In this document: in pieces, positions 2,422-37,723 of the stretch
How the letters are laid out: each line of letters begins with the position of its first letter
Numbering within the stretch: the stretch's first letter is position 1
Assembly (NCBI GenBank): GCA_029008875.1
Contig: JAQXJP010000035.1
Location: forward strand, 248,001-312,000
Origin: Lachnospiraceae bacterium
Lineage (GTDB): Bacteria; Bacillota; Clostridia; Lachnospirales; Lachnospiraceae
Direction of reading: 5' to 3'
Length of the DNA: 64,000 bases
Position numbers and translations under genes: made by a program
Notes under the pieces: generated by a model
Database searches by the model: none
Seen by the model: the letters and a program-made list of their open reading frames with translations, nothing else
What the model was told of the DNA's origin: nothing

Positions 2422-2501
2422 CAGATTTCTCCGTTTTGTCCAATAGTTCCAGTCCCATTTACAATATGAACCCCCACATAATTATGTCTGACCTTTTTCA
2501 T
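2421..2501 (-). CDS. 26-codon ORF translationally coupled on both sides
   Basis: A tiny frame starts with an ATG overlapping the stop of the HAD-YhcH gene (ATGA, 2498-2501). It ends with a TGA sharing its last base with the ATG of the epimerase gene (TGATG at 2421). The peptide begins MKKVRHNYVG and ends GTIGQNGEI; the middle reads VHIVNGTGT. I do not recognise it. The double stop/start overlap suggests ribosomes pass through it, either as a coupling leader or as the tail of a lost gene. It has no ribosome site of its own beyond the end of the preceding gene. Whether the peptide has a function is unknown. Confidence 0.4.
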   Translation of the reverse strand: MKKVRHNYVGVHIVNGTGTIGQNGEI

Positions 2502-3388
2502 TTAATTTTTACTTTAATAACCATTTTTTTTACGTTTTGCCTTACACTATCGGTAGCAATACAAGGCCTATGTACATCCTCCGGACGAAAAATCAAAAAT
2601 TCTCCATCCTTAATTGTGCGGTATCTTCCCACACAATTACCGGCATAAAATGTTACGTCCTTATTTGTATCATATATTTCTGACACAACTACTCTGTTCC
2701 TTTCTGTAACTTCTATCGTTTCAGTTCCGGAAATCATATATTGAATATCAATATACTTCTCATGTGATTCAAAACGTGTGTTATCATAGCTTCTTGTCTC
2801 ATAGGAATCTACATTTGCATATATCCTATCACCATTGATTTCGATCCTACCATCATTCAGTTCTTTTCCTCTGTTTGCTTCTAAAAAAGCAAATGCTTCT
2901 TCCATCTGTGGCCTGGAAATGAGCTCCAGATAATCAATAAAATCACGAACCGCACCTGCTCCACCATTTTTATCAGAGACAAAATCAACAATAGATTTCA
3001 CCTTTTCTACTGCATCTGCGGGACAAGCGGTCAATCCGCACAGCTTCATACTCTCTAAATCATTCAGGTCATCCCCCATGTATGCGACCTGATTACCCGT
3101 AACAGAAAATAGTTCCATTACTTCACGAAGCTTTGAAACTTTATCTGATACGTCCTGATATATATGCACAATCTTTAGTTCCTTACAGCGGTTTACTAAT
3201 ATATCTGATTTTCTACCGGTTATTATTACCGGAGTAATTCCCAGCACCGGTAGAACATTTGCTATTCCATATCCATCCTTAATATCGAATGCTTTCATCA
3301 CTTCCCCGGTTATTCCCATATATACTTTTCCATCTGTCAATGTGCCATCTACATCTAATATGAGAATTTTAATATTCTTAACCGCCAA
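2498..3388 (-). CDS. Fusion of KdsC-type HAD phosphatase and YhcH/NanQ-type sugar anomerase
   Basis: A 296-residue two-domain protein. Residues 1-165 are a small cap-less HAD phosphatase of the KdsC/ulosonate-phosphate type, with DVDGTLTDG at 12-20, ITGRKSD at 56-62 and GDDLND at 105-110. Residues 166-296 are a YhcH/YjgK/YiaL (DUF386) domain, with FESHEKYIDIQY at 206-217 and FRPEDVHRPC at 267-276 supplying likely metal ligands. YhcH (NanQ) is known as a sialic acid anomerase. The fusion fits removal of phosphate from a ulosonate phosphate and anomer supply to a CMP-transferase. It starts with TTG, chosen because GGAGG lies 7 bases upstream. Neighbours at 4147-6385 encode the aldolase and cytidylyltransferase. 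Confidence 0.85.
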   Translation of the reverse strand: MAVKNIKILILDVDGTLTDGKVYMGITGEVMKAFDIKDGYGIANVLPVLGITPVIITGRKSDILVNRCKELKIVHIYQDVSDKVSKLREVMELFSVTGNQVAYMGDDLNDLESMKLCGLTACPADAVEKVKSIVDFVSDKNGGAGAVRDFIDYLELISRPQMEEAFAFLEANRGKELNDGRIEINGDRIYANVDSYETRSYDNTRFESHEKYIDIQYMISGTETIEVTERNRVVVSEIYDTNKDVTFYAGNCVGRYRTIKDGEFLIFRPEDVHRPCIATDSVRQNVKKMVIKVKIK

Positions 3389-3480
3389 CTCTCATCCTCC
3401 TTTATTCAAGTCTGTATGATCATTTAAGTATTGTCTGACATATATGCATCTTTATATTAAGAAAAGGGTGGATATCATCT

Positions 3481-4119
3481 CTAGATAAACAAGATATTAT
3501 TCTGCAAATCCGTGATTGTGCTAATCGAAACATAATCAATATTTTTTCTATTTATTCTTCCATATCCGTATGAGGCAAAGATAAATTCATACCCTGTTGC
3601 CTCTGCCGCATCATAATCAGATTGCGTATCCCCTATCATAAAAAACTTATCTCCACAATTTTCTTTCCGAATTGCATGAAGCATTTGTTCCTTCGTATAG
3701 CACCCTCCCCTACCTACATAGTATATACTACTAAATAATTGCATAAAATCAAATATATGCATTATTGCATCTACCTGTTGCTTTGTTTTCATTGTAGCAA
3801 CATGTAATTTTGCACCACTTTCTCTCAAATAATTCAACGTCTTTGATGCTCCGTAATATGCATGCGTTTTTGCAATGTATTCTTCAATATATATCTTGCG
3901 ATACCGATTCACTGCATTATCTAATTCTTCTCCAGTCAATCCTAATTCTTCTGAAAAACACACTTTTACCGGAGGCCCAATATATTTCATCGCATCCAAA
4001 GGCTGAATACTATCTCCCCCATATTCCCCGATTACTCTATTCAATACCGCAATTATGTCTTGTGCTGAATTAAGCAGTGTTCCATCAAGATCGAATACTA
4101 AAATACTGTTTTCCCTCAT
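3481..4119 (-). CDS. HAD-superfamily hydrolase, phosphoglycolate-phosphatase (Gph) type
   Basis: A cytoplasmic HAD phosphatase of 212 residues with the nucleophile motif FDLDGTLL near residues 9-16, a helical cap and the acidic motif GDTQSDYDAA near residue 165. I place the start at the ATG at 4119, which has AAGAGGAAAGG just before it. The GTG at 4134 has no ribosome site. It lies 27 bases after the aldolase fusion gene and before the HAD-YhcH fusion, so the cassette carries two phosphatases. A plausible role is dephosphorylation of an intermediate or precursor of the CMP-sugar made here. The substrate is not readable from the sequence. Confidence 0.8.
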   Translation of the reverse strand: MRENSILVFDLDGTLLNSAQDIIAVLNRVIGEYGGDSIQPLDAMKYIGPPVKVCFSEELGLTGEELDNAVNRYRKIYIEEYIAKTHAYYGASKTLNYLRESGAKLHVATMKTKQQVDAIMHIFDFMQLFSSIYYVGRGGCYTKEQMLHAIRKENCGDKFFMIGDTQSDYDAAEATGYEFIFASYGYGRINRKNIDYVSISTITDLQNNILFI

Positions 4120-4146
4120 GCCTTTCCTCTTCACTAGTAAACAAAA

Positions 4147-5709
4147 TTATTGCAAGATGCTTGTCGTCAAGAATTCTATTTCTGCATATTCTGACAGATT
4201 AGAAATTAATTTTTTCATTTCACTGTTCATTTGCTTAATATCACATTTTCTAATATTGATAGTCATATCATTATTAATATAATTATCATCCATGTTATAT
4301 GAATAACCATCAATTCCAGCTAACCAGATTTTTTTTGCCTTTGAATCGACCAAGTATTTTAGCAACATCATCCCGGCATTATCCGCAATGAGTTCAAAGT
4401 CATTCATTAACATAGTATAATCTAGCCTATGTTGTACTTTTGAATCGTCTATATTCGACGTTACAATCAACTTTTGGTAAGGTTTTTGCTTCATTTCATG
4501 ATATCTACGGACATTACTAACAAAAATATAATCCACATCCAAGTAGCTATAAATAAAATTTAAACTAAATGCAATTACCGAATGCTCTCTCGCAAATTGG
4601 CATACTTTCTCTCGTTCAACCTCCGCGCTTCTTCCCGGTCCAATAATTAATATTTCCTTTCCTTGCCAGGATTTAATTAACTTATCACTATCCTCCAAGC
4701 CCTTTCCTAAATATTCAAGATATATGTCTTTTATATATTCCTTGTCAAATTCCCACTTCTTATCCGAATCCATTAGTGCAAAAATATCGGAAATGTTTTG
4801 AAGTGTTAATTTATTTTTCTCCTCCAAAAAGCTGGCATAATTAGGATGAATATTATACGTTCCAGACAAGTAATTCGCCAAGGAGTATCCCCAATAATTT
4901 TCTTCGTAAAATCTATTTAATATTTCATCAATTGTTTTCAGCACGAAATCTATTTTATAGCTTTTTCCACAGGAACAATTAAGATGTTCCATAAACAATT
5001 CCGTATTAAGATTTCCTGCTCCTCTTCCCATTCCGAAAACACTTGAATCAATCAATAATTCACGATTAGTCTGCATCCCAGTTAATACTTGTGCGTTTGA
5101 TAGAGCAAGCTGAAGATTATTATGTCCATGAAAACCAATAATTACGGAATCACTTAGGTTCTTTTCAACCATATAAAACAGATGCAAGAGTTGTTTTTGT
5201 TTCATAGAGCCAAAACTATCTACTATATAAAAAGCATATGGTTCAACTATATTGGCGTCTTCTATCAATTGTATAAATTCTACATCCGAATAGTTCAACG
5301 TAACCATTGGCTGCATAAAAAGCAAATAACCTTTTTCCTTTATTTTTTTACATTCTTCAAGAGCCTTTTCTCTATCCTTTTTATGAAAAGCCAATCTTAT
5401 TCCATCAATACTTGTTTTACTGCGTTCAGGAAGATTATCTATATTATACTGTCCAAAATTAATCATACAGACAACTTTGCTTTCTCCTTTAGAACTTGGT
5501 AAAACCTTCTCCAAATCAGATATTTGGCAAAACAATGATCTATCGGAATCCCCCTCTACTTTTTCATGTAGATATCCGCATTCAATTATTTCAGTCCCTG
5601 CTTGTACCAGATTATCAATGATGGTTACTATATTATGAAAGCCAAACTTCCATTCATTACAGTACCCTCCATCACGCAAAGTACAATCCAAAAGTTGAAC
5701 AGTTGCCAT
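4147..5709 (-). CDS. DRE-TIM (HMGL-like) aldolase fused to a GT42/DUF115-like C-terminal domain
   Basis: A 520-residue two-domain protein. Residues 1-330 form an HMGL-like TIM barrel with DCTLRDGG at 8-15, the metal motif HGH at 194-196 (GFHGHNNLQ) and GMGRGAGNLNTE at 226-237, as in 4-hydroxy-2-oxovalerate aldolases. Residues 350-520 form a Rossmann-like domain with IIGPGRS at 355-361, IVTSN near 415 and WLAGIDGYS at 462-470. That pattern is shared with DUF115/GT42 proteins such as the Cst sialyltransferases. Predicted role: aldol formation of a 3-deoxy-ulosonic acid, with the C-terminal domain possibly transferring or binding the activated sugar. It follows the cytidylyltransferase by 22 bases. 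A second copy lies at 34489-36084. Domains are sure; the reaction is inferred. Confidence 0.75.
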   Translation of the reverse strand: MATVQLLDCTLRDGGYCNEWKFGFHNIVTIIDNLVQAGTEIIECGYLHEKVEGDSDRSLFCQISDLEKVLPSSKGESKVVCMINFGQYNIDNLPERSKTSIDGIRLAFHKKDREKALEECKKIKEKGYLLFMQPMVTLNYSDVEFIQLIEDANIVEPYAFYIVDSFGSMKQKQLLHLFYMVEKNLSDSVIIGFHGHNNLQLALSNAQVLTGMQTNRELLIDSSVFGMGRGAGNLNTELFMEHLNCSCGKSYKIDFVLKTIDEILNRFYEENYWGYSLANYLSGTYNIHPNYASFLEEKNKLTLQNISDIFALMDSDKKWEFDKEYIKDIYLEYLGKGLEDSDKLIKSWQGKEILIIGPGRSAEVEREKVCQFAREHSVIAFSLNFIYSYLDVDYIFVSNVRRYHEMKQKPYQKLIVTSNIDDSKVQHRLDYTMLMNDFELIADNAGMMLLKYLVDSKAKKIWLAGIDGYSYNMDDNYINNDMTINIRKCDIKQMNSEMKKLISNLSEYAEIEFLTTSILQ

Positions 5710-5731
5710 AACAGTCCCTTTCCCCCAATTA

Positions 5732-6385
5732 TTATCTATTAATAATATTCATCTTTATTGCATTTGCAATTTCAAAATCAACCGGATTATTTATATCTAT
5801 TGCTTCAATTTCACTCACTTCCAGCAAATATGGGTTTTGACCTATTCTGCGCCGCATTTCTTGAATAACCGTTTTTGTGTATACATATAATCCAGTGGTC
5901 TCAATATATATTGGTTTTAAATCTTGTGTTCGAGGAATATGTTCAATCACGTAGTTTAAAGGTTTACCGTCTTGCCACATAAAGTCTTGCATCTTCTTAA
6001 CTGCAACTGCAGAGTCATACTGACCTTCTTTTACTATTCTAATACCTTCATCAATTGTTCCAGCCGTCTGAAATGGAGCCGTTGCATGTGCCAAAACATA
6101 TATATCCGCATCCACTTCTGTAGAAAAAGTATAAAACATGTCATTTACATCAGCTTGTGCCGAATCGAATTTTTCATCCCGTTTTAAATAATGTACATCA
6201 GGTAGAAGATACCCCTTAATATCTTCTTTGCTACAATAAACATATATTTCATCAACCTCACGTGCTTCTTTCAGTGATTGCAATATACAGTGAATTAGAG
6301 GCGTTCCATCATCAAAACATTTTGTGTTCTTCCCCGGTGTTCTTTCATTATTCATTTTTATCGGGACAAAGGCTACTGTTTTCAT
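5732..6385 (-). CDS. CMP-ulosonate (acylneuraminate-type) cytidylyltransferase
   Basis: A 217-residue cytoplasmic nucleotidyltransferase that should activate a ulosonic acid with CTP. FVPIKMNNERTPGKNTK at the N-terminus is a variant of the (I/V)PARxxSxRxPxKN signature of NeuA/PseF enzymes. The metal-binding region DIYVLAHATAPF (near 93-104), and the C-terminal EVSEIEAIDINNPVDFEIA, are also typical of the family. Arginine in the usual PAR site is replaced here, so substrate choice may be unusual. It is the first gene of the left cassette, with a candidate promoter about 150 bases upstream and a long leader. The aldolase, HAD and HAD-YhcH genes follow on the same transcript. Confidence 0.82.
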   Translation of the reverse strand: MKTVAFVPIKMNNERTPGKNTKCFDDGTPLIHCILQSLKEAREVDEIYVYCSKEDIKGYLLPDVHYLKRDEKFDSAQADVNDMFYTFSTEVDADIYVLAHATAPFQTAGTIDEGIRIVKEGQYDSAVAVKKMQDFMWQDGKPLNYVIEHIPRTQDLKPIYIETTGLYVYTKTVIQEMRRRIGQNPYLLEVSEIEAIDINNPVDFEIANAIKMNIINR

Positions 6386-6401
6386 ATTAATACTCTCTTT
6401 C

Positions 6402-6416
6402 TGTCGTTTTACGACA
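6402..6416. promoter_or_regulatory. Small inverted repeat in the leader of the left CMP-sugar cassette
   Basis: TGTCGT-TTT-ACGACA is a perfect 6-bp inverted repeat with a 3-base loop. It lies 17-31 bases before the ATG of the cytidylyltransferase gene. On the minus strand it lies just upstream of the ribosome site, so it could be an operator or a small RNA hairpin affecting initiation. Short perfect repeats also occur by chance. Confidence 0.3.
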
Positions 6417-6531
6417 TTTATTAAAAACTATCAATTAACAGACACTTCTAGCAGATACTTCTTGTGTGCCCAGCTAAAAATATGAACATATATTTTTGCA
6501 GGCTTTTTCTGCACGAATTGCATTTACATTT

Positions 6532-6559
6532 ATTATATATCATATTCCAGTATTCCAAA
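6532..6559 (-). promoter_or_regulatory. Candidate sigma-A promoter of the left CMP-sugar cassette
   Basis: On the minus strand a perfect -10 TATAAT occupies 6532-6537. Upstream, TTTGGA (6554-6559) lies at a 16-base spacing and is a weak -35. It would fire towards the cytidylyltransferase gene with a leader of about 140 bases. The -10 is good, the -35 poor. Confidence 0.45.
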
Positions 6560-6616
6560 AGTCCAAAATATGTTTTTTATTAAATATTTTAGGGAAAATA
6601 ACCCCACAAAAATCTC

Positions 6617-6645
6617 TCGACAAATAAAGCAAAAAATAGTACAAT
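6617..6645 (+). promoter_or_regulatory. Sigma-A promoter of the pyruvyltransferase gene
   Basis: TCGACA (6617-6622) and TACAAT (6640-6645) are separated by exactly 17 bases, each one mismatch from consensus. The expected start point is near 6652, giving a short leader to the TTG start at 6679. Confidence 0.65.
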
Positions 6646-6678
6646 AGCCTAAAATTCTGTACCGAAGGGAGAATTAAT

Positions 6679-7965
6679 TTGAAACGCATTTTAGTTTATA
6701 CCTCAATTGTTCCGATGGGCGAATATGATATATGGGGAACTATTGACTATTCCCAATTGTATCAGGTAAATAAAACCTACTACGATGGAAAATGCAGAAA
6801 TACCGGAAACAAGGTTTGGATGCAAGGTATTATTTCAGAGTTATCTACACCTGAAAACCAACTTGTTTACTATGACCCCAAAATGACTTTTGAACAGATT
6901 AATGCTAATTTTGACATGGTCTTATTTTCAACTGCAAATTTGTTTTGCAGAAAATTTCTCGATGAAATGGAAGAATATTCTTCCTTTTTCAGCGAAATAA
7001 AAATCCCAGTATTTGTAATTTCGTGTGGTGCACAAGCTAATTCTTATGATGATTTGCATAATCTTTGTGCTGATATACGCAAACCTGCAACAAAGTTCAT
7101 TGATACAATTTATAATACAGGTGGTGAATTTGGACTGCGTGGTTATTTTACAAAAGAAGTTTTTGATTGCCTTATGTCGAATACTGCTGTTGTAACAGGA
7201 TGTCCTTCTCTTTTTCAGAATGGTAGAACCTTAAAAATTAGCGAAGAAAAGTTGGATTCTCATCTTATAAAACCCGTTTTTAATGGTTCTCTCCCATTTA
7301 AAAATGATGTTTTCAAGGAATATCCTGACAGCATATATATAGATCAAAATTTTTATTTTAATGAACTTTACGCTCCAAGTTTTTGGGATAATATTGAAAT
7401 TAGTAACCATGGTATTTATCAATTGATAAAAAAGTATAAACTACAATACTTAAATTTGTTAGTATCTAATCGTCTCAAACTTTTTGTAGACATTCCAGAA
7501 TGGCGTTCTTTTCTACAACAAAATGGTTATAATTTATCACTAGGCTCGCGGATTCATGGAAATATAATGGCACTACTAAGTGGAATTCCTGCTATAATTT
7601 ATGCGCAAGATACCCGAACTAGAGAAATGGCAGAATTTTATAATATCCCGTATTTCCTTCCTGAACATAAATTCCAAAAGTCCGTTTATGATATTTATCA
7701 AAATGCCGATTTTCGCAAATTTAATTTAGAATTTAGCAGTAAATATGATGCCTTTGAGAATTTCCTAATTCAGCATGGCATAGTTGAAAAAATGAATACA
7801 GATAATATATTCTGGAGTAAACAAGCGCCTATAAAATATCCAAATGAGTCAGACCCTGTAAAAGAAGAAATTGCTTCCGCTTTACGCAAGCATCCGTTTC
7901 TTTACTCTTCTATGAACAGTTTTATTATTCTCGATGAGAAAATCCGATGGAAACTAACTCATTAG
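6679..7965 (+). CDS. Polysaccharide pyruvyltransferase family protein
   Basis: A 428-residue protein of the CsaB/WcaK-like polysaccharide pyruvyltransferase family, which adds ketal pyruvate from phosphoenolpyruvate to glycans. Visible family features are an N-terminal KRILVYTSI strand, VISCGAQAN near residue 115, VVTGCPSLF near 175, and the C-terminal LSLGSRIHGNIMALLSGIPAIIYAQDTRTREMAEFYNIP block near 290-330. The start is TTG, supported by AAGGGAG 7 bases before it. It is one of only two plus-strand genes. It has its own promoter and a hairpin after it, so it forms an independent unit between two minus-strand blocks. The PEP-pyruvyl role is inferred from the family. Confidence 0.8.
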   Translation: MKRILVYTSIVPMGEYDIWGTIDYSQLYQVNKTYYDGKCRNTGNKVWMQGIISELSTPENQLVYYDPKMTFEQINANFDMVLFSTANLFCRKFLDEMEEYSSFFSEIKIPVFVISCGAQANSYDDLHNLCADIRKPATKFIDTIYNTGGEFGLRGYFTKEVFDCLMSNTAVVTGCPSLFQNGRTLKISEEKLDSHLIKPVFNGSLPFKNDVFKEYPDSIYIDQNFYFNELYAPSFWDNIEISNHGIYQLIKKYKLQYLNLLVSNRLKLFVDIPEWRSFLQQNGYNLSLGSRIHGNIMALLSGIPAIIYAQDTRTREMAEFYNIPYFLPEHKFQKSVYDIYQNADFRKFNLEFSSKYDAFENFLIQHGIVEKMNTDNIFWSKQAPIKYPNESDPVKEEIASALRKHPFLYSSMNSFIILDEKIRWKLTH

Positions 7966-7978
7966 TACACTCGTGTTG

Positions 7979-8016
7979 TAGGGTATGGTTGCGAAACTGT
8001 GAGATTCCATACCCTA
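7979..8016 (+). terminator. Hairpin between convergent genes
   Basis: TAGGGTATGG (7979-7988) pairs perfectly with CCATACCCTA (8007-8016) around an 18-base loop, between the ends of the pyruvyltransferase and PIG-L genes. The tract after it on the plus strand is moderately T-rich but not a clean run. It may end plus-strand transcription or stabilise both mRNA ends. Confidence 0.5.
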
Positions 8017-8034
8017 GATTTGCTTTCCATATTC

Positions 8035-9954
8035 TCATTTTAGATGATGTGTAAAAATACTTAATAATGTTTTATAGTACAAGTAGATATCTGCTGCCGA
8101 ATGCCTTACTATGTATCGTACAATTCTATTTTTGAGTTTGGACATGTGAGAAAAGCAGATTGTATCTGAAATTACGTCATTTCCCCTTTTTTTCACGGTT
8201 AATCTACCTCGTGCCCCCTTCGGGCACAATACACAAATGCAATCATCTTCAAAAGTATAACTACAATCTCCCCTCTTACTTTCCAGAGAGACTTCAATAT
8301 CTTGCCAAATTCTTTTTCCGTCTAATCTTGGATATGTATATATTTCATATTTCTTTTTATCTTCGGCAAAGAAATCCTCATAAATAAAATTCTCTTTAGA
8401 ATCCATAATTTTGACAAATTCGAGTTCCGAGATTTTTTCCTGCTCATACGCCTCAATTTCAAGTAAACCTCCAGCATCCTCTGACCATTCTTCAAACTCA
8501 ATAGTAAATTCAGAAAGTTCTTCTTGTTCAAATGTGATTTTAACAGGAAATTTTATTCCAGGAAATAAATCTACCCAATACCGTTTTTCATTCTCTGTCT
8601 TTAATGCAAGACGAATCCTACTAGTACTATGTTTCAAAAAGCCATAAATCCATACTGAAGATATTTTTCTCTTTTCTGGTAACATAACTTTTAAGAATGC
8701 TTTACCATTTGACAAGTCTTCTTTTAACGGAGCATAAAAACGATCGTACTCCGTAACATTCTTTTTCATAATGTCATTACACTCTTGCAATTTGAAATCA
8801 TTTAAATATGTTATATTTCCATGACCATCCAAAATCTCCGCATCGTAAATGATACTGCCTGTATTTCTCTCCCAGAATACTTTATCCCCATTGATGATTC
8901 GCCCAGCCTTTCCTAATGCTGGTTGCGTCGTATATTTCGAAAGCAGTCGGTATGTTTTACACTTCGAAAGACTTCTGCTGACATTTTCAATGACTACTGG
9001 AATCCGTATACGATCTGCCCAAAAAAAGGTATGATTCTCTTCCATGTAACCATGTTCCGAAAGCGATACTGTCGATTTTAAGTTCCACTCCTCTAAAAAA
9101 TCATCTGACGCGTAATATGCAGTAGGATAACAAAAGCCCTTAAATACTTTGGGTCTGAACAAAACATCATCTTTAAAAATACTTCCCATCGCTTCTTCAA
9201 ATAAAAGCGATACAGCTCTATGATCCGGATGCGAATCAAAATCCACCACATACAACACATCTGGCCGTATTGTCATTATGACCTTTTTTATATCACCAAA
9301 GAAATTGTCCCTCGTATATTTTACTCCGTCTGAAAAGGGGGCTTTTGTCTCTAGCGCGTACGTTGATTGATACCCTGCCTGGGAAGTCATCTGAACAATT
9401 CCATTTGCGTGATAAATATGTCTTATCTTCTCTCCATTACTCTCGGTATATGGTTGCCACTGGTCTCCATAGCCAAGAAAAATCACGTGTTCCTGGTCAA
9501 TTCCAATCTCTTTGCATACAGCTAAAGCCTCCATCATTCGAATAGTTCCAAAATTATTATAATCCCCGTTGGTTGCATAAACGATAAAAACTTCACTTTC
9601 GTTTTGTAAATAACGTTCTAATATATCTGAAGCCAGATTTAGTTCATCATCTTGATGCGGCACAAGAACCATGACTCTTTTTTTATAAAATATATTTGAT
9701 TGAAATTGAGAGCCGTTATACCAAAAATAAGCAGAAAAAACCTTCTGAAGCACCAACCACATAAGCAAAATTAATAAACATATTGTATCAACAACAAGCG
9801 CAAAATGAAACTCGTTTATAATGAAAGTCACTGCCAATGTTAAGGCAAATACACATGCTATAAATAGAAATTGATTCTTATAATGCGAAAATTGCACACA
9901 AATTGCTCCGACCAATATAACCAAAAACACAGGAACAACAACATTTATTACCAT
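8035..9954 (-). CDS. Membrane-anchored PIG-L/LmbE-type deacetylase with long C-terminal region
   Basis: A 639-residue protein. Three hydrophobic segments lie at about 3-20, 28-46 and 52-70. They are followed by a PIG-L (LmbE) zinc deacetylase domain with PHQDDE at 99-104 and DSHPDH at 240-245. The family hydrolyses N-acetyl groups of GlcNAc-type sugars. Residues about 340-639 form a mainly beta-type region I do not recognise, so the protein is more than twice the usual length of about 230-270. The topology does not tell whether the domain faces in or out. It probably modifies a glycan or lipid-linked sugar of this locus. It is the last gene of the 59-8 kb block. Confidence 0.78.
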   Translation of the reverse strand: MVINVVVPVFLVILVGAICVQFSHYKNQFLFIACVFALTLAVTFIINEFHFALVVDTICLLILLMWLVLQKVFSAYFWYNGSQFQSNIFYKKRVMVLVPHQDDELNLASDILERYLQNESEVFIVYATNGDYNNFGTIRMMEALAVCKEIGIDQEHVIFLGYGDQWQPYTESNGEKIRHIYHANGIVQMTSQAGYQSTYALETKAPFSDGVKYTRDNFFGDIKKVIMTIRPDVLYVVDFDSHPDHRAVSLLFEEAMGSIFKDDVLFRPKVFKGFCYPTAYYASDDFLEEWNLKSTVSLSEHGYMEENHTFFWADRIRIPVVIENVSRSLSKCKTYRLLSKYTTQPALGKAGRIINGDKVFWERNTGSIIYDAEILDGHGNITYLNDFKLQECNDIMKKNVTEYDRFYAPLKEDLSNGKAFLKVMLPEKRKISSVWIYGFLKHSTSRIRLALKTENEKRYWVDLFPGIKFPVKITFEQEELSEFTIEFEEWSEDAGGLLEIEAYEQEKISELEFVKIMDSKENFIYEDFFAEDKKKYEIYTYPRLDGKRIWQDIEVSLESKRGDCSYTFEDDCICVLCPKGARGRLTVKKRGNDVISDTICFSHMSKLKNRIVRYIVRHSAADIYLYYKTLLSIFTHHLK

Positions 9955-10010
9955 ATCTTCTTTCTAACTCCATTTCTTTCTCGAGTCATAGCGCCCAACA
10001 ATTTATCAGA

Positions 10011-10766
10011 TCATTTTTTTTCTTTAATGTATCTGTCTTCAAATATCCCCTTCAACCCAACAGGATTTATCGAAATTATCCTTGTATCTGGATACATTTT
10101 TGTCGCAAACTCCTTAAATCTTACATATCCCTCATACATATCATGTAAATGTTTGTCCATAATCGATGTGCTTTTACTTTTATCATAGAAATATCCCGTA
10201 CTACTGCAATCGCACCCAATTAAATATAATTCTGCCGGATTCGTAAATATTGCAAACTGCAATGCCGAAAAAGCGACACTGAAACAGTTCATTAATGGAT
10301 GATGGCATATATCCTCATATATCTTCAATGTCGGCGGGCAATCGTCTACATAATATGGATTCGCTCCATGCTCCACAATTAGGCTCTCTGGTATCTGAAT
10401 ATCTTTTGGCGACTTAAATTTACCATAGAATTTAATACAGTCAAGTTTTCCAATCTCATCCATAATCTCGCGTGGTGTTCCATTTAAGTAGTCTTGGCAA
10501 AATAGATAATCCAATTTCAATTTATCACTCTTGTATGCCTTGTTTACGCCCACATAGATTATATCCCCCTCCGGTACATACTGCGCCAGCGTAGGACCAG
10601 TTGCAACCACAGCAACTTTTTCTCCCTGATACATATTTTTATATCTTTCAAAACTTTTTGTATTAGTATCAATTATCTGCTGCGCAATCAGCATATTTTC
10701 TATCTGTTCTTGACCTAATTCCCAACGAAAGTTCTTCAAATATTGTTTTATTCTTTTAGTTAACAT
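10011..10766 (-). CDS. GT42/DUF115-like putative glycosyltransferase
   Basis: A 251-residue soluble protein. AVVATGPTL (residues 52-60) near the N-terminus matches the G.GPSL nucleotide-binding motif of DUF115 and GT42 sialyltransferase-like proteins. SVAFSALQFAI followed by ELYLIGCDC (179-187) matches their (S/T)G..A...A...G..EIYL.G.D block. Predicted role: transfer of a CMP-activated acidic sugar, perhaps the one made by the 2498-6385 cassette. The start is set at the ATG at 10766 because GGAG lies 6 bases upstream; an in-frame TTG at 10778 has none. It follows the flippase gene closely. The acceptor is unknown. Confidence 0.65.
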   Translation of the reverse strand: MLTKRIKQYLKNFRWELGQEQIENMLIAQQIIDTNTKSFERYKNMYQGEKVAVVATGPTLAQYVPEGDIIYVGVNKAYKSDKLKLDYLFCQDYLNGTPREIMDEIGKLDCIKFYGKFKSPKDIQIPESLIVEHGANPYYVDDCPPTLKIYEDICHHPLMNCFSVAFSALQFAIFTNPAELYLIGCDCSSTGYFYDKSKSTSIMDKHLHDMYEGYVRFKEFATKMYPDTRIISINPVGLKGIFEDRYIKEKK

Positions 10767-10789
10767 AAGTTTCTCCAAACTGATTTCTG

Positions 10790-12547: not shown

Positions 12548-12584
12548 TTTTATCCTTTCCGACTCACAGCAAAGCCCTTATAGT

Positions 12585-17721: not shown

Positions 17722-19578
17722 CTAATCGTTGCGGCGATATACAGTAAACGCGTCATACTCTTCACGCGTATATTCACCCATTTCTCCCCATTCATCCAAC
17801 AAGAGATAGGCTTTCGTAATGTTCTCATCCTCCGCAAGCAGTTGCTCTCTGTCCCCAATCGCAAATATTGCCTCAGGCTTTGTCTCCTGGAGTTCTTCGA
17901 TAAAATCTTCGCACAAATCATCTCTCACATTGACTGCCGGCGTCTGATAGTAATAACGATTTGTGGTATATCTGTCGCCCTCCAAATAGTAAATGCAATT
18001 ATTCCCCATCATCAATACATTGTCATCCTTCTCCGTATAATCCTGCAGATACTGTGCTACCGGGGATAGTGGAATATCCTGATAGGTGATTACCGACACC
18101 GCAAATTGCGCTCCCCAAAGGGCAATTCCTAATGCCATCATCATCGCGAGTGGTTTCTTCATATGTATCCCCTTGATTCTTGATAGCAAAACTACCATCG
18201 GGAGGATTAATGCCGGAATTAAGATAATGGAATAGTGCGCATGTGCCCGTCCCGACATAGACGCTACCCCCAACGATAATATGTAGAACCACAAATTCAT
18301 CTGGTACAAATGATTCTTATAGAACAATTTGGTCGCAGCCAGCAGTAGAACCGAATAGATTGTCTGTCGCCGGAAGAGTAGCCAAATCACCTTCCAGATT
18401 GGCATCGCACTCTTTTCGCAATAGGACAGACTGAACAAAAAGTAGCAGTCTAACATTCCCTCGAAACTGTTTGACATAACACTATAAACAATTACAGGGA
18501 CTGTAACTATCGCAAGACCTAAAATGAAATTTACCACACAGATTCCAATATTTCGCCAATCCTTTTTTATAATCATTTGCACTAAAATAATTGGCATGAA
18601 CGCGGCGAATACAGCAATCATATTCGCACGCATAAATATGATATAGGCGCACCCTACCCCCAGCAGGATAATCTCATAGAAGCGATAGGTTTTATCAATC
18701 AGATATTTCAAGCAAATATACAGCCCAAGCGTAATCCAAGGCAACACCCACTCCTCCGACAGATTCCCGTCCGTCAAAAGCATACATACTGTCAACGCTG
18801 CCACAGATGCCGCAACTGTAATATATTGAACAGGTCGCTTTGTTGTCAAGAGTTTGGTAACCTTAAATGTTAACAGCGCCGTGATAAAAGCATTTACCAA
18901 TTCCAGTATCCAGATTCCCGTCAGCTTTCCCTCTGTGAGCAACAGCCCAATCAAATCGGTTAGGTAAAGAAAGATTCCTTTGTGTTCAAATATATCCACA
19001 TATAAGACAGAACCCTTCTTCATCATCATTGCCACATAAATATATGCAGCAGAATCATTGCCGGTCAGCACATCCGACCAGGGATTCAGCGCCAACCGCA
19101 TTCCCAGACATAAGGTAACCACAACTGCGAAAGCGATATCCATAGGTAAGAGTTTCCGATTGGATACGGGGATATTCTCCTCGGGAAATTCCTTTGATGA
19201 TTCCGTCCTCATCACAATACAGATTAAGTATAGCACCGCAAGACTTCCTGCGATTGACCCCAGCACGATAACAAGCAATAGGAATGCTTCCACGCTCATC
19301 CCGAACAAATTTGCAAAAAATAGCAGTTTCCCGGACAAGCGCCATTTATCATAGAATTCCATGCCGAACATATAAAAGATTAGCGCTAATGGCAAGATAT
19401 AATACCACTTAAACTTTGTGCTTATGGTCGCTTTAATATCCGGCAATTGTCTCCCTATCACATAAGCAAGCACCATTGTCACAGGTACTCCCAAAACGCC
19501 ATACAGATAAGGAGGCATAAGCAAACACCATACTGCAGTCATTGATATCGCAAATAACATTCGTTGTAATTTTCCCAT
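17722..19578 (-). CDS. GT-C (GT39-like) membrane glycosyltransferase, tandem copy 2
   Basis: A 618-residue polytopic protein with roughly twelve hydrophobic segments. The first long extracytoplasmic loop has NPWSDVLTGNDSAAYIYVA and IFEHKGIFLYL. The acidic residues after TM1 and HKG are typical of GT39/ArnT-like GT-C enzymes using polyprenyl-phosphate sugars. A soluble C-terminal domain (about 500-618) contains NVLMMGNNCIYYLEGDRYTTNRYYYQTP. It is the same length as, and clearly paralogous to, the gene right upstream (19587-21443). Predicted to transfer a sugar outside the membrane. Specificity unknown. Confidence 0.75.
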   Translation of the reverse strand: MGKLQRMLFAISMTAVWCLLMPPYLYGVLGVPVTMVLAYVIGRQLPDIKATISTKFKWYYILPLALIFYMFGMEFYDKWRLSGKLLFFANLFGMSVEAFLLLVIVLGSIAGSLAVLYLICIVMRTESSKEFPEENIPVSNRKLLPMDIAFAVVVTLCLGMRLALNPWSDVLTGNDSAAYIYVAMMMKKGSVLYVDIFEHKGIFLYLTDLIGLLLTEGKLTGIWILELVNAFITALLTFKVTKLLTTKRPVQYITVAASVAALTVCMLLTDGNLSEEWVLPWITLGLYICLKYLIDKTYRFYEIILLGVGCAYIIFMRANMIAVFAAFMPIILVQMIIKKDWRNIGICVVNFILGLAIVTVPVIVYSVMSNSFEGMLDCYFLFSLSYCEKSAMPIWKVIWLLFRRQTIYSVLLLAATKLFYKNHLYQMNLWFYILSLGVASMSGRAHAHYSIILIPALILPMVVLLSRIKGIHMKKPLAMMMALGIALWGAQFAVSVITYQDIPLSPVAQYLQDYTEKDDNVLMMGNNCIYYLEGDRYTTNRYYYQTPAVNVRDDLCEDFIEELQETKPEAIFAIGDREQLLAEDENITKAYLLLDEWGEMGEYTREEYDAFTVYRRND

Positions 19579-19586
19579 ACCTAACT

Positions 19587-27021: not shown

Positions 27022-27047
27022 TTTTTCCCTTTCGCTGTAATAATCAA

Positions 27048-27076: not shown

Positions 27077-27108
27077 AGAGGTAAGTAATACAAAGGAGTT
27101 GTGTCCCA

Positions 27109-28116
27109 ATGAAAACCCAAAGCAGTGATTCAAATTATAATTTTATTCTAGTGGGTAAACCACTTGAATTGTATCGCTATGCCTACATGCAAGTAGAGTC
27201 TTTAGATTATGCCTTTTTTGATAGCAGTTTTACCCAAAACAAAATAGTCAGTTTATTCAATCGCCTGTATTGGTCAACAAAGATTAATCAATACATAACA
27301 CTTCCGTTCAAAAAAAAATGGCTTAAACATAAGATAAAAAAATTTATTCAGTTAAGAGAATCTATGCCAGCCCCCAAGAAACCTATTTGTTTTCTCCTGT
27401 TTTCTACTTGTGTTCCATGGGAAAAATTTGACTTTTCTGCAATGCTAAAAAAAACTTTTCCCGATTGTAAAATTATATACTATTTTAGCGACCTTGTCGA
27501 AATAAATCCTATTAGGAAAAAATTTGTACAAGAGATTCCAAATTCTATTGATTTGATTTACACATACGATTTAGGGGATGCTCGTAAGTATAACTTGCGC
27601 TACTATCACTTTCCGTATTCAGACATTTCCGACATTTACCCCAAGCATTCTCCTATGTTTGACATATCTTTTGTGGGACAGGCAAAGAATCGTTTAAATG
27701 AAATTGTAGATGCATACACAATTCTTCGCGATAAAGGCTATACTTGTGATTTCTATGTGGTAGGAGTTCCCCGAAAAAAACAAATCTTAAAAAAAGAAAT
27801 TCATTATTGTAACTGGATTTCCTACAAAAGATACCTTAAGATTGTCCAAAACAGCAAAGTCATACTAGAAGTTGTCCAAAAAAACAGTAGGGGGAGTTCT
27901 GTTCGAGTAAATGATGCGATTGTTTTTAAAAAAGTACTAATTTCAAATAACCCCTTTTTAAGAGATGACCCACTATTTTCCGAATCGTATATATATATAT
28001 ATGAAACCTTAAATGAATTAGCCAAATTTCAACTTATTCCTCATGCAATTTTCCCGAAAAAATATACACTTTATCCAAGTGAATTTTTCAAGAGAATAAC
28101 TAATGATTTGAAATAG
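27109..28116 (+). CDS. Putative GT-B glycosyltransferase, CgeB-like
   Basis: A 335-residue soluble protein I cannot place firmly. It begins with a strand (YNFILVGKPLELY). It has a central IIYYFSDLVEINPIR and DLIYTYDLGDARKYNLRYYHFP, then DISFVGQAKNRLNEIVDAYTIL and YKRYLKIVQNSKVILEVVQKNSRGSSVRVNDAI. A second-domain phrase of the form (F.G....R...) followed by (Y...(L)..S.V.L......G.S.R..(D/E)A) is seen in CgeB-like GT-B glycosyltransferases. It is on the opposite strand to its neighbours, very AT-rich, and probably acquired separately. Ribosome site AAAGGAG lies 10 bases before the ATG. Confidence 0.5.
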   Translation: MKTQSSDSNYNFILVGKPLELYRYAYMQVESLDYAFFDSSFTQNKIVSLFNRLYWSTKINQYITLPFKKKWLKHKIKKFIQLRESMPAPKKPICFLLFSTCVPWEKFDFSAMLKKTFPDCKIIYYFSDLVEINPIRKKFVQEIPNSIDLIYTYDLGDARKYNLRYYHFPYSDISDIYPKHSPMFDISFVGQAKNRLNEIVDAYTILRDKGYTCDFYVVGVPRKKQILKKEIHYCNWISYKRYLKIVQNSKVILEVVQKNSRGSSVRVNDAIVFKKVLISNNPFLRDDPLFSESYIYIYETLNELAKFQLIPHAIFPKKYTLYPSEFFKRITNDLK

Positions 28117-28184
28117 AGAACTAAAACAAGGTGATTGTTAGCAACCAAATAATGCCATTTTAACTTCTTCCCCAAAATAACAGG

Positions 28185-31187: not shown

Positions 31188-31190
31188 TAT

Positions 31191-31916: not shown

Positions 31917-31948
31917 CAAATGTTAATACCTTTCCACCTGTCAACAAT

Positions 31949-33031: not shown

Positions 33032-33047
33032 TGTCTATTTCTCCACA

Positions 33048-34472: not shown

Positions 34473-34488
34473 TTTACTACTCCTTGCT

Positions 34489-36084
34489 TCATTCATTATA
34501 CATAGACTCTGTCAAGAAAATAAGCTGAATATCTTTCTTTGTTTCTGCAATAAACTTTTTGAAAAATTCATTCCGCTCTTTTGCCTGCTCCTCGGTGACC
34601 GGACGTCTCAAATTCGGATCCATGTAGTTCTCGTTAATGTTGACGGAAAATCCGTCAAATCCGGCCAAATAGACTTCTTTTACCCCGATTTCCCTCAAAA
34701 GGTTAAACACCACTACCAGAGCAGAATCATTCACACCGTCCTCGGTGTGAATCCACTCTTTGTAATCGATTACCTGCACCTGCCCGTCAAACTCCGCTAC
34801 AGGCGTTCTTGTCACATTGCTTGTGACAATCACATGTTTTCCCCGGCCAATCGCTTTCTCATATCGTTCCTGCTTGGTGGCGAGCACGTAATCGGTCAAA
34901 TATGCTCTGTCATTATTAAGCGCTATGGATATCGCATTCTCATCTGCAAGCATTTCCCTGATGACGGCATCTGCATCCGTAAGATGTTTTCCCGGCGCGA
35001 TAAGAAGCACCTTCTTACCTGCAATCTTTTCCTTCAATGCCGCAACAACCACTTCATCGTCCAACTGTTTTTCCTGGTTATACTCTAAATACAATCGGTC
35101 CGCAAATTCCTTGTCAAAAGAAATCTTCTTTTCTTCCGGAATCATCCTCAACAAATCGGATACCTGGTCAATGGGAAGCATATGTTTCTTGAAGAAGTGA
35201 CCGGCATAGCTTGGAGTACAATGGTTGATAGAAGATAAATAATACTCTACCGAATATCCCCAATAAAATTCCGAATGAATCTGGTTAATTACCGTATCAA
35301 TCACTTCCAATAGGGGTTGTATCTGATAATTCTTTCCAAAATACAGGTTTAAATGCTCCGCGAACAATTCCGTGTTCAAGTTGCCCGCGCCTTTGCCCAT
35401 TCCCATGACAGATACATCCGCGATGCGGTCTCTCATTGTATTAAATTCAATAAATGAAACCGCATTAGAGTAGGACAATTGCAGATTATTATGTGAGTGA
35501 AAGCCCAGTTTCATTTCAGAAATCAGATTGTGATCCACCAGATTTAAAACTCGACTCATATCATTTGCGCGCATCTCTCCAAAGCTATCCACAATGTAGA
35601 AGGCTGTCGCCTGTGGCAGTTGGGTGTTCACCTCCTCAATCAGGTCCAGCAGTTCCTGATCGGAATAGCGCATAGTGGTCATTGGCTGAATATAGAGTTG
35701 ATAGCCTTTTTCGATAATCATCTTCCCCACTGCAATAATGTCATGACGGTTTTTCTTATGAAAGGCCAGGCGGATACCATCGATATCCCTATCCGTGCGC
35801 TGTGGCAGACGGGCCACATCATATTTTCCATAGTCCATCATGGCTACATAGGTCACACCCTGCTTTTTCTCCGTCAGGAAGTGATCACGGATCACTTCCT
35901 CACAACAGTACTGGGTCCGACCTTCCTCCGAGCCATTCTTCTCATCGATATAGCCGCATTCGATGATGTCTACATCGGCTGCTTCCAGACTATGTAGAAT
36001 TGCTTCCATGTATTCCGTCCCGAAATTAAAGTTGTTCACACAACCTCCATCTCGCAGAGTACAATCTAAAATCTGAATATTCAT
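34489..36084 (-). CDS. DRE-TIM (HMGL-like) aldolase fused to a GT42/DUF115-like domain, second copy
   Basis: A 531-residue paralogue of the 4147-5709 protein. The barrel has DCTLRDGG at 7-14, IDGIRLAFHKK at 101-111, the metal pair HSH at 196-198 and GMGKGAGNLNTE at 228-239. A shared YWGYSVEYYLS stretch (about 274-284) precedes the C-terminal domain (358-531) with LLIAPGKH, VIVTSN and VYLAGFDGFS. The partner enzyme here is KdsB rather than a NeuA-like enzyme. Predicted to make a Kdo-like ulosonic acid by aldol addition, with the tail possibly binding CMP. There is no separate phosphatase beside it. Reaction inferred. Confidence 0.75.
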   Translation of the reverse strand: MNIQILDCTLRDGGCVNNFNFGTEYMEAILHSLEAADVDIIECGYIDEKNGSEEGRTQYCCEEVIRDHFLTEKKQGVTYVAMMDYGKYDVARLPQRTDRDIDGIRLAFHKKNRHDIIAVGKMIIEKGYQLYIQPMTTMRYSDQELLDLIEEVNTQLPQATAFYIVDSFGEMRANDMSRVLNLVDHNLISEMKLGFHSHNNLQLSYSNAVSFIEFNTMRDRIADVSVMGMGKGAGNLNTELFAEHLNLYFGKNYQIQPLLEVIDTVINQIHSEFYWGYSVEYYLSSINHCTPSYAGHFFKKHMLPIDQVSDLLRMIPEEKKISFDKEFADRLYLEYNQEKQLDDEVVVAALKEKIAGKKVLLIAPGKHLTDADAVIREMLADENAISIALNNDRAYLTDYVLATKQERYEKAIGRGKHVIVTSNVTRTPVAEFDGQVQVIDYKEWIHTEDGVNDSALVVVFNLLREIGVKEVYLAGFDGFSVNINENYMDPNLRRPVTEEQAKERNEFFKKFIAETKKDIQLIFLTESMYNE

Positions 36085-36127
36085 GATAGAAAATCCTTTC
36101 TGTTTTTGTTTAATTCTATACCGGTTG

Positions 36128-36856
36128 CTATTGTCTGCCTTTCATTGCCTCTTCAACTCTGGCTACGTCCTCCGGTCTGTCCACGGCAATGGTAGATGAA
36201 TCTACCGTCACAAACTTTATGTTGATATGATTTTCCACGAATCTCATCATTTCGATATCTTCTATTTTCTCAATTTTTCCCCTTTCTGTCTCGGCAAAAT
36301 AGAGCAACGCTTTTCTTGTCAAACCATATAACCCAAGATGCTTCATATATGTGATATCCTGCCCTTTCTTCGGGTACGGGATTGGAGAGCGAGACAAATA
36401 GATTCCATCATCCTCTGCATTAGTCACTACTTTTACGCAGGTGTTGGAAGTGATCTCTCTTTCCTCCTTGATGGGCGTGATGGTATTGATCACTTCTGTC
36501 TCGGGATGCTCCATTTTATAGTCCACCACCTTCTTGATGGTCTCCGGCTCAATCATCGGCTCATCGCCCTGGATATTCACATAAAAGTCTGCCTCAATCT
36601 TCCTTGCCACCTCACCGAGACGGTCTGTACCGGTCTGATGAGTATTCGATGTCATAATGACATTCATATCATACTGTTTGCATGCCGCTTCAATCCGCTG
36701 ATCATCGGTTGCCACATACACTTCATCAAAGGCCTCAACCTTCATTGCCTGCTGATATACCCAGTAAATCATAGGTTTCCCACAGATATCTGTCAACGGT
36801 TTACCCGGAAAACGGGATGATTCATAGCGGGATGGAATAACTCCAATAATTTTCAT
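36128..36856 (-). CDS. kdsB: 3-deoxy-manno-octulosonate cytidylyltransferase (CMP-Kdo synthetase)
   Basis: A 242-residue enzyme that activates Kdo or a related ulosonate with CTP. Diagnostic blocks are IIGVIPSRYESSRFPGKPL, VYVATDDQRI, TGTDRLGEVA, FYVNIQGDEPMIEPE and KHLGLYGLTRKAL, ending with TIAVDRPEDVARVEE. Length is normal. It is sandwiched between the aldolase fusion and a GT42/DUF115-like gene. Kdo is classically a Gram-negative LPS sugar, and no kdsA, kdsC, waaA or lipid A gene is visible, so the sugar made here may be a Kdo analogue in a Gram-positive glycan. Confidence 0.9.
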   Translation of the reverse strand: MKIIGVIPSRYESSRFPGKPLTDICGKPMIYWVYQQAMKVEAFDEVYVATDDQRIEAACKQYDMNVIMTSNTHQTGTDRLGEVARKIEADFYVNIQGDEPMIEPETIKKVVDYKMEHPETEVINTITPIKEEREITSNTCVKVVTNAEDDGIYLSRSPIPYPKKGQDITYMKHLGLYGLTRKALLYFAETERGKIEKIEDIEMMRFVENHINIKFVTVDSSTIAVDRPEDVARVEEAMKGRQ

Positions 36857-36883
36857 ACGTATTTACCTCTTTTCTATTTCAAA

Positions 36884-37723
36884 TTATCGCGTAATAATGT
36901 CTTCCAAATTCACTCGTTTAAATGTCTCCAATTGTCCGCCCCTGGTTGCATTGTAGATGGTAAAACCATGCGCATCTGCGTAATCTTTTGCAATCTCAAA
37001 CTGCGGAAGCATTTGATTCCCATTCTTTATGAGACGTTCCTGCGTCCATTTCGTCTTGTGATCAATATACGTCACATTCTCACTGTACATTTTCGGTTGC
37101 GCGTAGTTACAATCCACCCCCAACAAATAGATCTCAGAAAAACCCATATAGGCAGCAAATTGAAGCATTGCGTATACCACTGACTTCCCCGTATAAACAA
37201 CCTGTGTGATATCACCACTGAAATCGGTCTCCGGGAATGCTTTCGGAAACAGGCGTCTCCAGAAGGTATCCGTCATCATATTGGCCGTGTCATCTTTGGG
37301 AAATGCGATTCCATTCTTCCCATCGTAGGTCGCATCCATATCCGTGTAGAAGAAAACCGGGATATCTTCCCTCTTCAATTGATCTCCCATGATTTCAACG
37401 GCATGGGAATCCACGATGCCATAATATGTTCCACGCCAATCGGTCTTATCATACATGGTCAGACAGGAATTGACAGCAAATGTGTATTCCCCCTTAAGCA
37501 AGTCTACATCTTCCAACCGAAGGCTTGGCCCGGTTCCAACGATAAAACAGCGCTCACCCTTATGAACGTCATGGAACCTGCTCAAGTTTTTTACATAAAC
37601 CTCATGCAAATTTTCGTTTCTTTTCGTTACTTCCTTTTTCTTCCTCCGATAAACGAACAGGGTCTGTATGTCTCGTACAAACCGAATCGCACCAGGGAAA
37701 TGATTCTTTATAAATTCCTTCAT
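36884..37723 (-). CDS. GT42/DUF115-like putative ulosonyltransferase
   Basis: A 279-residue soluble protein with CFIVGTGPSLRLEDVDLL (GTGPSL at 63-68) and, later, YTGKSVVYAMLQFAAYMGFSEIYLLGVDC (in two parts, about 177-205). That is the same two-block pattern as the 10011-10766 protein and the aldolase C-termini. The family includes MptE-like proteins and is close to GT42 sialyltransferases. Its position right upstream of kdsB on the transcript makes transfer of the CMP-ulosonate the most likely job. AGGAG precedes the ATG. Enzymatic role inferred. Confidence 0.68.
   Translation of the reverse strand: MKEFIKNHFPGAIRFVRDIQTLFVYRRKKKEVTKRNENLHEVYVKNLSRFHDVHKGERCFIVGTGPSLRLEDVDLLKGEYTFAVNSCLTMYDKTDWRGTYYGIVDSHAVEIMGDQLKREDIPVFFYTDMDATYDGKNGIAFPKDDTANMMTDTFWRRLFPKAFPETDFSGDITQVVYTGKSVVYAMLQFAAYMGFSEIYLLGVDCNYAQPKMYSENVTYIDHKTKWTQERLIKNGNQMLPQFEIAKDYADAHGFTIYNATRGGQLETFKRVNLEDIITR

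Follow-up and report, generated by a model that had tools for sequence, protein, structure and literature searches.

Repeated pairing of DmpG-like aldolase and cytidylyltransferase genes suggests a pyruvate-dependent route to CMP-ulosonic acids in a Lachnospiraceae polysaccharide locus

Introduction

To our knowledge, the biosynthesis of sialic-acid-like sugars and of 3-deoxy-D-manno-octulosonic acid (Kdo) starts with a synthase that depends on phosphoenolpyruvate (PEP). Prediction of such pathways depends on finding NeuB or KdsA. The classical Kdo pathway comprises KdsD, KdsA, which uses PEP and arabinose 5-phosphate, KdsC, KdsB and a Kdo transferase, and the nonulosonic acid pathways comprise NeuB, a cytidylyltransferase (NeuA, PseF or LegF) and a GT42 or Maf protein. 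Here we describe a stretch of 64,000 nucleotides from a Lachnospiraceae bacterium (GenBank assembly GCA_029008875.1, contig JAQXJP010000035.1, positions 248,001 to 312,000 of the forward strand), referred to below as the window, that contains two cassettes in which a gene for a DmpG-like aldolase adjoins a gene for a predicted cytidylyltransferase. We consider it probable that each cassette is a pathway to a cytidine monophosphate (CMP)-activated ulosonic acid in which a DmpG-type, divalent-metal pyruvate aldolase replaces the PEP-dependent KdsA or NeuB.

Kdo genes have been described in a Gram-positive bacterium, Bacillus coahuilensis m2-6, where they lie on a genomic island with glycosyltransferases; unlike the window cassettes, B. 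coahuilensis has kdsA and kdsD and thus the classical route (PMC4744853). Hydroxylated 2-keto acids are also used by the thiamine diphosphate (ThDP) enzymes of branched-sugar formation: according to a review, ErwE couples a hydroxylated 2-keto acid to cytidine diphosphate (CDP)-4-keto-3,6-dideoxyglucose and prefers 4-hydroxy-2-oxo acids (PMC12247030). Among the papers listed by searches of the open-access literature, none described this aldolase in CMP-ulosonate synthesis; most subscription papers were outside the search, and this negative is therefore weak evidence of novelty. The parts described below belong to known families, and it is their combination, an aldolase in the slot of KdsA or NeuB, that we did not meet in the open-access literature.

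Two aldolase-cytidylyltransferase cassettes lie in one polysaccharide locus

An earlier note, made from the letters of the window alone, had proposed that one gene set occurs twice and forms a modular pathway, in which an aldolase makes a ulosonic acid, a CMP-transferase activates it and a GT42-like protein transfers it. All the open reading frames that it named were found where it placed them, on the minus strand, within a single long stretch that consists mostly of minus-strand genes of polysaccharide type. The left cassette comprises a KdsC-like phosphatase of the haloacid dehalogenase (HAD) superfamily fused to a YhcH/DUF386 domain of the sialic acid anomerase family (2498-3388), a second HAD phosphatase of the HAD_2 type (3481-4134), the first copy of the DmpG-like DRE-TIM aldolase with a C-terminal GT42-like domain (4147-5709), a divergent cytidylyltransferase, here called CMP1 (5732-6385), and a weakly matching GT42/MptE-like gene (10011-10778). 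The right cassette comprises the second aldolase copy, again with a C-terminal GT42-like domain (34489-36084), a KdsB of the CMP-Kdo synthetase family (36128-36856) and a GT42/Maf/MptE-like putative transferase (36884-37723). A set of cytidylyltransferase, aldolase and GT42/MptE-like gene does therefore occur twice in one polysaccharide locus.

The two aldolase genes are 28.8 kb apart, and their products are 38% identical over their length. The source genome is a draft of 2.63 Mb in 43 contigs that is 93% complete. The aldolase profile A2 found three genes in it: both window copies and a further one in a third set on another contig (C3, stretch L082), where the gene order is PF01973 protein, methyltransferase, cytidylyltransferase, aldolase fusion, TylF-like methyltransferase and KdsC-like phosphatase. 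Chance or a recent tandem copy was rejected as the origin of the repetition because of the low identity of the window aldolases, their positions in different starred groups of the aldolase tree and the third set on a separate contig. Exactly three PF02348 genes exceed the Pfam cut-off in the whole genome, each adjoining one of the three aldolases, with a fourth match under the cut-off; the two PF01973 genes over cut-off both lie inside cassettes.

The right cytidylyltransferase was assigned to KdsB by TIGR00466 (174.1 bits, curated cut-off 155.2). The left one is recognized by PF02348 (35.3 bits, cut-off 22.6) and scores far below the PseF equivalog model (36.9 bits against 205.7).

The observation that neither NeuB nor KdsA is encoded beside the cassettes could be extended to the genome. 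In this draft, NeuB (PF03102) gave no match, and neither KdsA (TIGR01362) nor KdsD (TIGR00393) gave a match at E ≤ 1e-20, an absence that is not final because the genome is a draft. The sole PF00793 match, considered as a KdsA encoded elsewhere, proved to be an AroFGH-type 3-deoxy-D-arabino-heptulosonate 7-phosphate (DAHP) synthase (TIGR00034, 268 bits, cut-off 173.2). The cassettes thus resemble nonulosonic acid pathways in combining a cytidylyltransferase with a GT42/Maf-like gene and differ from them in the lack of a detectable NeuB, the carbon-carbon bond step being assigned to the aldolase.

KdsB co-occurs with the aldolase in genomes lacking KdsA

We then examined 250 genomes of the same family, representing 250 genus codes, with thresholds of E ≤ 1e-60 for the aldolase, E ≤ 1e-20 for KdsB and NeuB, and the curated TIGR01362 cut-off for KdsA. 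The aldolase was present in 61 genomes, KdsB in 23 (14 over its own cut-off) and KdsA in 5; TIGR01362 matched 117 genomes, of which the 112 below cut-off were assumed to carry DAHP synthases. KdsB and the aldolase occurred together in 21 of the 23 KdsB genomes (hypergeometric P 1.1e-12), and an aldolase gene lay no more than 250 bp from 14 of the 23 KdsB genes and no more than 10 kb from 19. KdsA was lacking from 20 of these 23 genomes, 19 of which contained the aldolase. KdsD at E ≤ 1e-20 was found in none of the 20, the source genome included; among the 23 it occurred only in G116 and G184, both of which also have KdsA.

The exceptions were few. G184 has KdsB and KdsA and no aldolase, and G116 has both KdsA and an aldolase, with KdsB near KdsA. 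In G052, KdsA is located elsewhere, yet KdsB adjoins the aldolase. In G129, KdsB lies 16 kb from a barrel contained in a 746-residue protein, and in G236 KdsB has neither partner and is 0.7 kb away from the end of its contig.

For CMP1, a profile built from genes neighbouring aldolases (A5) gave 28 matches at E ≤ 1e-30 in the same genomes, 16 of them at E ≤ 1e-70. Fourteen of these strong matches are within 52 bp of an aldolase, and the other two (G022, G103) are within 25 bp of KdsA. Two matches of middle strength (G098, G119) are in genomes without an aldolase at threshold, and the 10 weaker ones are longer frames of about 390-570 residues on contigs that also have NeuB matches.

The aldolase appears to fill the slot of KdsA in sister cassettes

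Several sister cassettes hold the classical synthase among the same partners. The gene order is CMP1, KdsA, KdsD in L089; GT42-like gene, one further gene, CMP1, KdsA, KdsD, KdsC, GT42-like gene in L090; and GT42-like gene, KdsB, one further gene, KdsA, KdsD in L094. In L091, the order is CMP1, aldolase barrel, KdsD. Because the CMP1 and KdsB partners are shared with KdsA in these cassettes, the aldolase appears to occupy the slot that KdsA holds there. Likeness to the classical Kdo pathway thus extends to KdsB, a KdsC-like phosphatase, an adjacent putative transferase and this common slot (L089, L090 and L094); the difference lies in KdsA and KdsD, which were not found in the 93% complete genome, and in the DmpG-like aldolase present instead.

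KdsB suggests that Kdo is the sugar. In a narrower version of the proposal, the right cassette would make Kdo itself, the aldolase joining pyruvate to D-arabinose 5-phosphate (or D-arabinose), and the carbon-carbon bond step alone would depart from the classical pathway. Consistent with this, KdsB exceeds its curated cut-off, the KdsC-like phosphatase matches a subfamily model of Kdo-8-phosphate type, CMP1, aldolase and KdsD are adjacent in L091, and L090 and L094 combine the same GT42-like family with classical Kdo genes. However, the absence of KdsD from all 20 KdsB genomes without KdsA argues against the usual supply of arabinose 5-phosphate, and KdsB-family enzymes can take other 3-deoxy-ulosonates. 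We regard this Kdo-specific version as possible but rather unlikely, and retain the broader proposal of a CMP-ulosonic acid pathway.

The barrel retains the metal site of pyruvate aldolases

Both window aldolases were placed in the DRE-TIM/HMGL-like metal-dependent aldolase superfamily by their PF00682 (HMGL-like) scores (68.9 bits for copy 1 and 61.6 for copy 2, cut-off 29) and by their metal-site residues. The closest NCBIfam models are those of 4-hydroxy-2-oxovalerate aldolases, with TIGR03217 scores (82.5 and 82.0 bits) well below the cut-off of 286. In profile and structure comparisons (model pLDDT, the predicted local distance difference test, 90.4), the best solved relatives of the barrel were the 4-hydroxy-2-oxovalerate aldolases and 3dxi, whose record gives it as the N-terminal domain of BVU_2661, a putative aldolase from Bacteroides vulgatus. 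Residues R12, D13, H194 and H196, which align with the metal/pyruvate site of DmpG, are invariant in all 42 aligned sequences, the Arg-Asp pair (RD motif) lying on the first strand of the barrel. By analogy with DmpG, we take the Asp and the His-x-His to be metal ligands and assign the Arg of the RD motif its role there. At the position aligned with His21 of DmpG (1nvm), which we take to be the acid/base of that enzyme, Tyr stands in 37 of the 42 sequences, Phe in 3 and Cys in 2, which requires a different proton-transfer step. Since the RD motif and the metal histidines are invariant, pyruvate aldol chemistry is likely, with an altered proton-transfer residue.

The window proteins therefore share barrel fold, metal ligands and RD-motif arginine with DmpG and AmnG (1nvm, 8ih7) and with 3dxi; unlike DmpG and AmnG, they fall far below the equivalog cut-off, have no His at the His21 position and carry a C-terminal GT42-like domain. 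DmpG and AmnG serve aromatic breakdown, whereas the window aldolases lie in polysaccharide loci.

The wider DRE-TIM fold also includes Claisen enzymes, and this, with the replacement of His21, would fit a barrel that is no pyruvate aldolase and yields a different product, either a 2-keto acid or a branched one; it might, for instance, carry out a Claisen-type condensation with an acyl-CoA, the reaction of isopropylmalate, homocitrate and citramalate synthases. The cytidylyltransferase would then act on a ulosonic acid from outside. We consider this improbable, given that 3dxi and the 4-hydroxy-2-oxovalerate aldolases came out best in profile and structure comparisons and that the KdsC-like phosphatases and the replacement of KdsA indicate a ulosonate phosphate.

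One relative departs from the usual architecture: in L092 (3119-5359), a barrel like that of copy 2 is part of a 746-residue protein, the C-terminal part of which matched a choline-phosphotransferase model weakly and below the cut-off.

KdsC-like phosphatases point to a probable aldose phosphate acceptor

The N-terminal part of the protein encoded at 2498-3388 matches TIGR01670 (152.8 bits, cut-off 106.95), is 45% identical to an annotated Klebsiella KdsC and scores below the KdsC equivalog NF007019 (160.8 against 208). Its C-terminal part belongs to the YhcH/DUF386 family (TIGR00022, 122.4 against 45.5; PF04074, 134.5 against 26.5), is the sole DUF386 match in the genome and falls below the N-acetylneuraminate anomerase equivalog NF040884 (93.4 against 160). 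The second HAD gene, 3481-4134, matches PF13419 with 86.8 bits. In the 250 genomes, the KdsC-like query gave 21 matches at E ≤ 1e-25, among which the window protein is the only one that spans both domains. Fourteen of the 21 are within 1.3 kb of an aldolase and one is in the KdsA cassette of G022; of the remainder, two are longer frames near NeuB (G195, G106) and four are elsewhere (G153, G129, G212, G240). A KdsC-like phosphatase is thus often part of the module, and the aldol acceptor is therefore probably an aldose phosphate.

The YhcH domain raises the question of direction. YhcH is a zinc protein that makes sialic acid available to NanA in its open form during sialic acid breakdown (PMC8141875). 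By that precedent, the cassette could be catabolic or serve salvage, with YhcH opening the ring, as it does for NanA, and the aldolase cleaving scavenged ulosonic acids. The cytidylyltransferases and the many glycosyltransferase and ATP-binding cassette (ABC)-type transporter genes around the window aldolases speak against this; breakdown would need no cytidylyltransferase beside each of three aldolases, and we consider a salvage role very improbable. The biosynthetic reading is followed below.

The wider aldolase family has CMP and ThDP contexts

At least 562 relatives of the aldolase were found in genome contigs, and the best 80 loci were analysed. Of these, 77 gave 78 aldolases (two in L047); L030, L035 and L042 were set aside because a longer antisense frame had been taken. 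Neighbours were labelled by phmmer matches to ten window proteins, genes unlike these staying unlabelled. ThDP enzyme, DegT and polysialyltransferase labels came from BLAST clusters of genes no more than four places away from the aldolase, a single scanned member giving each cluster its name, and GT42-like labels cover the entire fetched stretch.

A cytidylyltransferase gene lies directly upstream on the same strand of 44 of the 78 aldolases (26 CMP1-like, 18 KdsB-like), against the 6.7 expected from random placement of cytidylyltransferases within these loci. Relatives of the second HAD phosphatase lie directly downstream of 26 of the 78. Titles of the locus records include Lachnospiraceae, Paenibacillus, Bacillus, Bacteroidales, Akkermansia, Gastranaerophilales and Fusobacterium, a Campylobacterales bin and a Thermoplasmata bin. 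The cultured species Lactimicrobium massiliense and Proteocatella sphenisci are among the carriers (loci L006, L009). The Thermoplasmata archaeal bin (L057, 1568-6768) has aldolase fusion, HAD and KdsB genes in a row, which could reflect a binning error or transfer. The Campylobacterales bin holds a natural single-protein fusion of aldolase and cytidylyltransferase of 768 residues (L026, 2352-4658).

We mapped the partner type onto a quick aldolase tree from which L017 and L018 (<480 residues) were omitted, the eight contexts labelled 'other' being left out of the final count of changes. The KdsB label changed 16 times, at least 12 of these changes being forced by starred branches. The label is slightly clustered (16 changes against a mean of 19.5 for shuffled labels, a count as low being reached in 12 of 500 shuffles), and window copy 2, with its KdsB partner, pairs with full support with L051, which has a CMP1 partner. 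These repeated changes suggest that the cytidylyltransferase partner has been swapped, and its type seems to have been exchanged many times. The modular character of the cassettes was thus borne out: the aldolase associates with GT42-like genes and with cytidylyltransferases of two kinds, which are interchangeable.

The context differed sharply between loci with and without a separate cytidylyltransferase. Among the 52 with one, a GT42-like or polysialyltransferase-like gene is present in 28 and a ThDP enzyme in one, whereas among the 26 without one, counting the fusion in L026, such a transferase is present in one and a ThDP enzyme in 20 (Fisher P 1e-5 for the transferase and 2e-12 for the ThDP enzyme). 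A DegT enzyme is near in 11 of these 26, and a relative of the second HAD in 11. The best solved relatives of the ThDP enzyme are 8rph and acetolactate synthases. With 20 of 26 near a ThDP enzyme, the aldolase family is not limited to CMP-sugars. Since 4-hydroxy-2-oxo acids, the preferred substrates of ErwE, are the expected products of a pyruvate aldolase, the CMP and ThDP contexts fit a single activity, and we infer that they are compatible with one aldolase activity. The likeness to the erwiniose, yersiniose and caryophyllose enzymes (ErwE, YerE) lies in this sister context, where the ThDP enzyme is often accompanied by DegT and nucleotide-sugar genes; the window cassettes differ in having no ThDP enzyme, and 20 of the ThDP loci in having no separate cytidylyltransferase of this type.

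In about 20 loci, exemplified by L050 (7847-14110) and L075 (8051-14130), the aldolase is near an acetolactate-synthase-like ThDP enzyme, about half of them also having DegT; such aldolases may supply the hydroxylated 2-keto acids that go into branched sugars like erwiniose and caryophyllose. On a Desulfobaculum bizertense plasmid (L096, 2846-7014), genes for RfbH, a transketolase in split form and an aldolase of the bare-barrel type, annotated as hypothetical, follow one another, which would make transketolase another type of ThDP partner. Of 163 plasmid records, the 15 listed call the relatives 'aldolase catalytic domain-containing protein', 'hypothetical protein' or dmpG or leave them unnamed, and a Priestia plasmid copy lies among genes of the aromatic-breakdown type. 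In neither the plasmid nor the phage collection did a record match 80% of the aldolase query at a single site.

GT42-like genes and the C-terminal domain

The gene at 36884-37723 matches PF01973 with 54.9 bits (cut-off 34.6). That at 10011-10778 scores 24.5 bits, under the cut-off, and is related to the former by BLASTP (E 4e-7); it is the best match for eight of the 20 GT42-like proteins in the fetched loci. The protein from 36884-37723 has sequence-profile and fold similarity to the GT42 sialyltransferases CstI and CstII. Around the catalytic His of CstII, which we take as the reference site, the alignment is gapped and of low confidence, and the model has pLDDT <50 at residues 208-223. Foldseek ranked archaeal HPPK first, with weak TM-scores, and VIA-align ranked Maf first.

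The description of the aldolases as GT42 fusions stood in part. A fused domain is present, and its GT42 identity is a profile-profile resemblance (95.2% by hhalign to the GT42-like alignment); its profile gave nothing significant against PDB sequences, and the structure comparison of the aldolase model covered mainly residues 1-310. That the domain is itself a GT42 transferase is unsupported, because it is also retained in loci with a ThDP enzyme and no separate cytidylyltransferase (L050, L054, L075, L076). The idea that the domain and KdsD are mutually exclusive, which came from the bare barrel beside KdsD in L091, was likewise not supported: G014, G029, G086, G156 and G179 have a bare-barrel copy as well as a full-length copy elsewhere, and no KdsD at E ≤ 1e-20.

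Proposed pathway and the evidence that weighs against it

In the pathway that we propose, the aldolase would join pyruvate and an aldose phosphate to give a 3-deoxy-2-ulosonate phosphate, from which, judging by family, the KdsC-like phosphatase, the second HAD or both would remove the phosphate. On the left, the YhcH domain of the fusion protein may open or re-close the ring in preparation for the following enzyme. The CMP-ulosonate would then be formed by CMP1 in the left cassette and by KdsB in the right one, and the neighbouring GT42/Maf-like protein could pass the ulosonate from CMP into a capsule-type glycan. Of the sequence of steps in the earlier note, the gene association is thus upheld, and the activities and the sugar are predictions.

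Several observations weigh against this proposal. The 80 loci analysed are a selection, the best from at least 562 relatives, and the 26 aldolases without a separate cytidylyltransferase in the fetched stretch, 20 of them near a ThDP enzyme, stand outside it. Profile A5 was made from aldolase neighbours, which favours finding such genes; the CMP1 genes next to KdsA run counter to that bias. The right cassette has no adjoining phosphatase, and the acid/base His21 of DmpG is replaced. Beside the window cassettes, neither KdsD nor another obvious supplier of an aldose phosphate was seen, and of 46 genomes searched for KdsD, just 3 had it over its cut-off. In the family sample, NeuB is frequent (104 of 250 genomes at E ≤ 1e-20), so its absence from the source genome is not a rule for carriers. 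Finally, the GT42-like genes show a resemblance to MptE, an archaeal pterin kinase, as well.

Beyond the window, we lean, with some reserve, towards a third route to CMP-ulosonic acids that is new, independent of PEP and exists beside those of KdsA and NeuB. In it, a metal-dependent pyruvate aldolase family, present in Firmicutes, Bacteroidota, Campylobacterota, Verrucomicrobiota, Gastranaerophilales and an archaeal bin, would make 4-hydroxy-2-oxo sugar acids either for CMP activation and GT42-like transfer or for ThDP-dependent sugar branching. If so, genomes without NeuB or KdsA could still produce ulosonic acids, the surface glycans of many gut-type Gram-positive bacteria may hold unreported ones, and the origin of the hydroxylated 2-keto acids used by ErwE-like branching enzymes could be explained.

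Other genes of the window

Between the left cassette and the gene at 10011, a PIG-L-type deacetylase is encoded (8035-9954; PF02585 at residues 95-255, with long unmatched parts on either side), which may act on the same glycan. The minus-strand locus is interrupted by two plus-strand genes (6679-7965 and 27109-28116), one of them pyruvyl-transferase-like; both are in A+T-richer stretches and are possible later insertions. At 17722-21443, two adjacent membrane-type proteins of 618 residues are 36% identical over their full length, pointing to an old tandem duplication.

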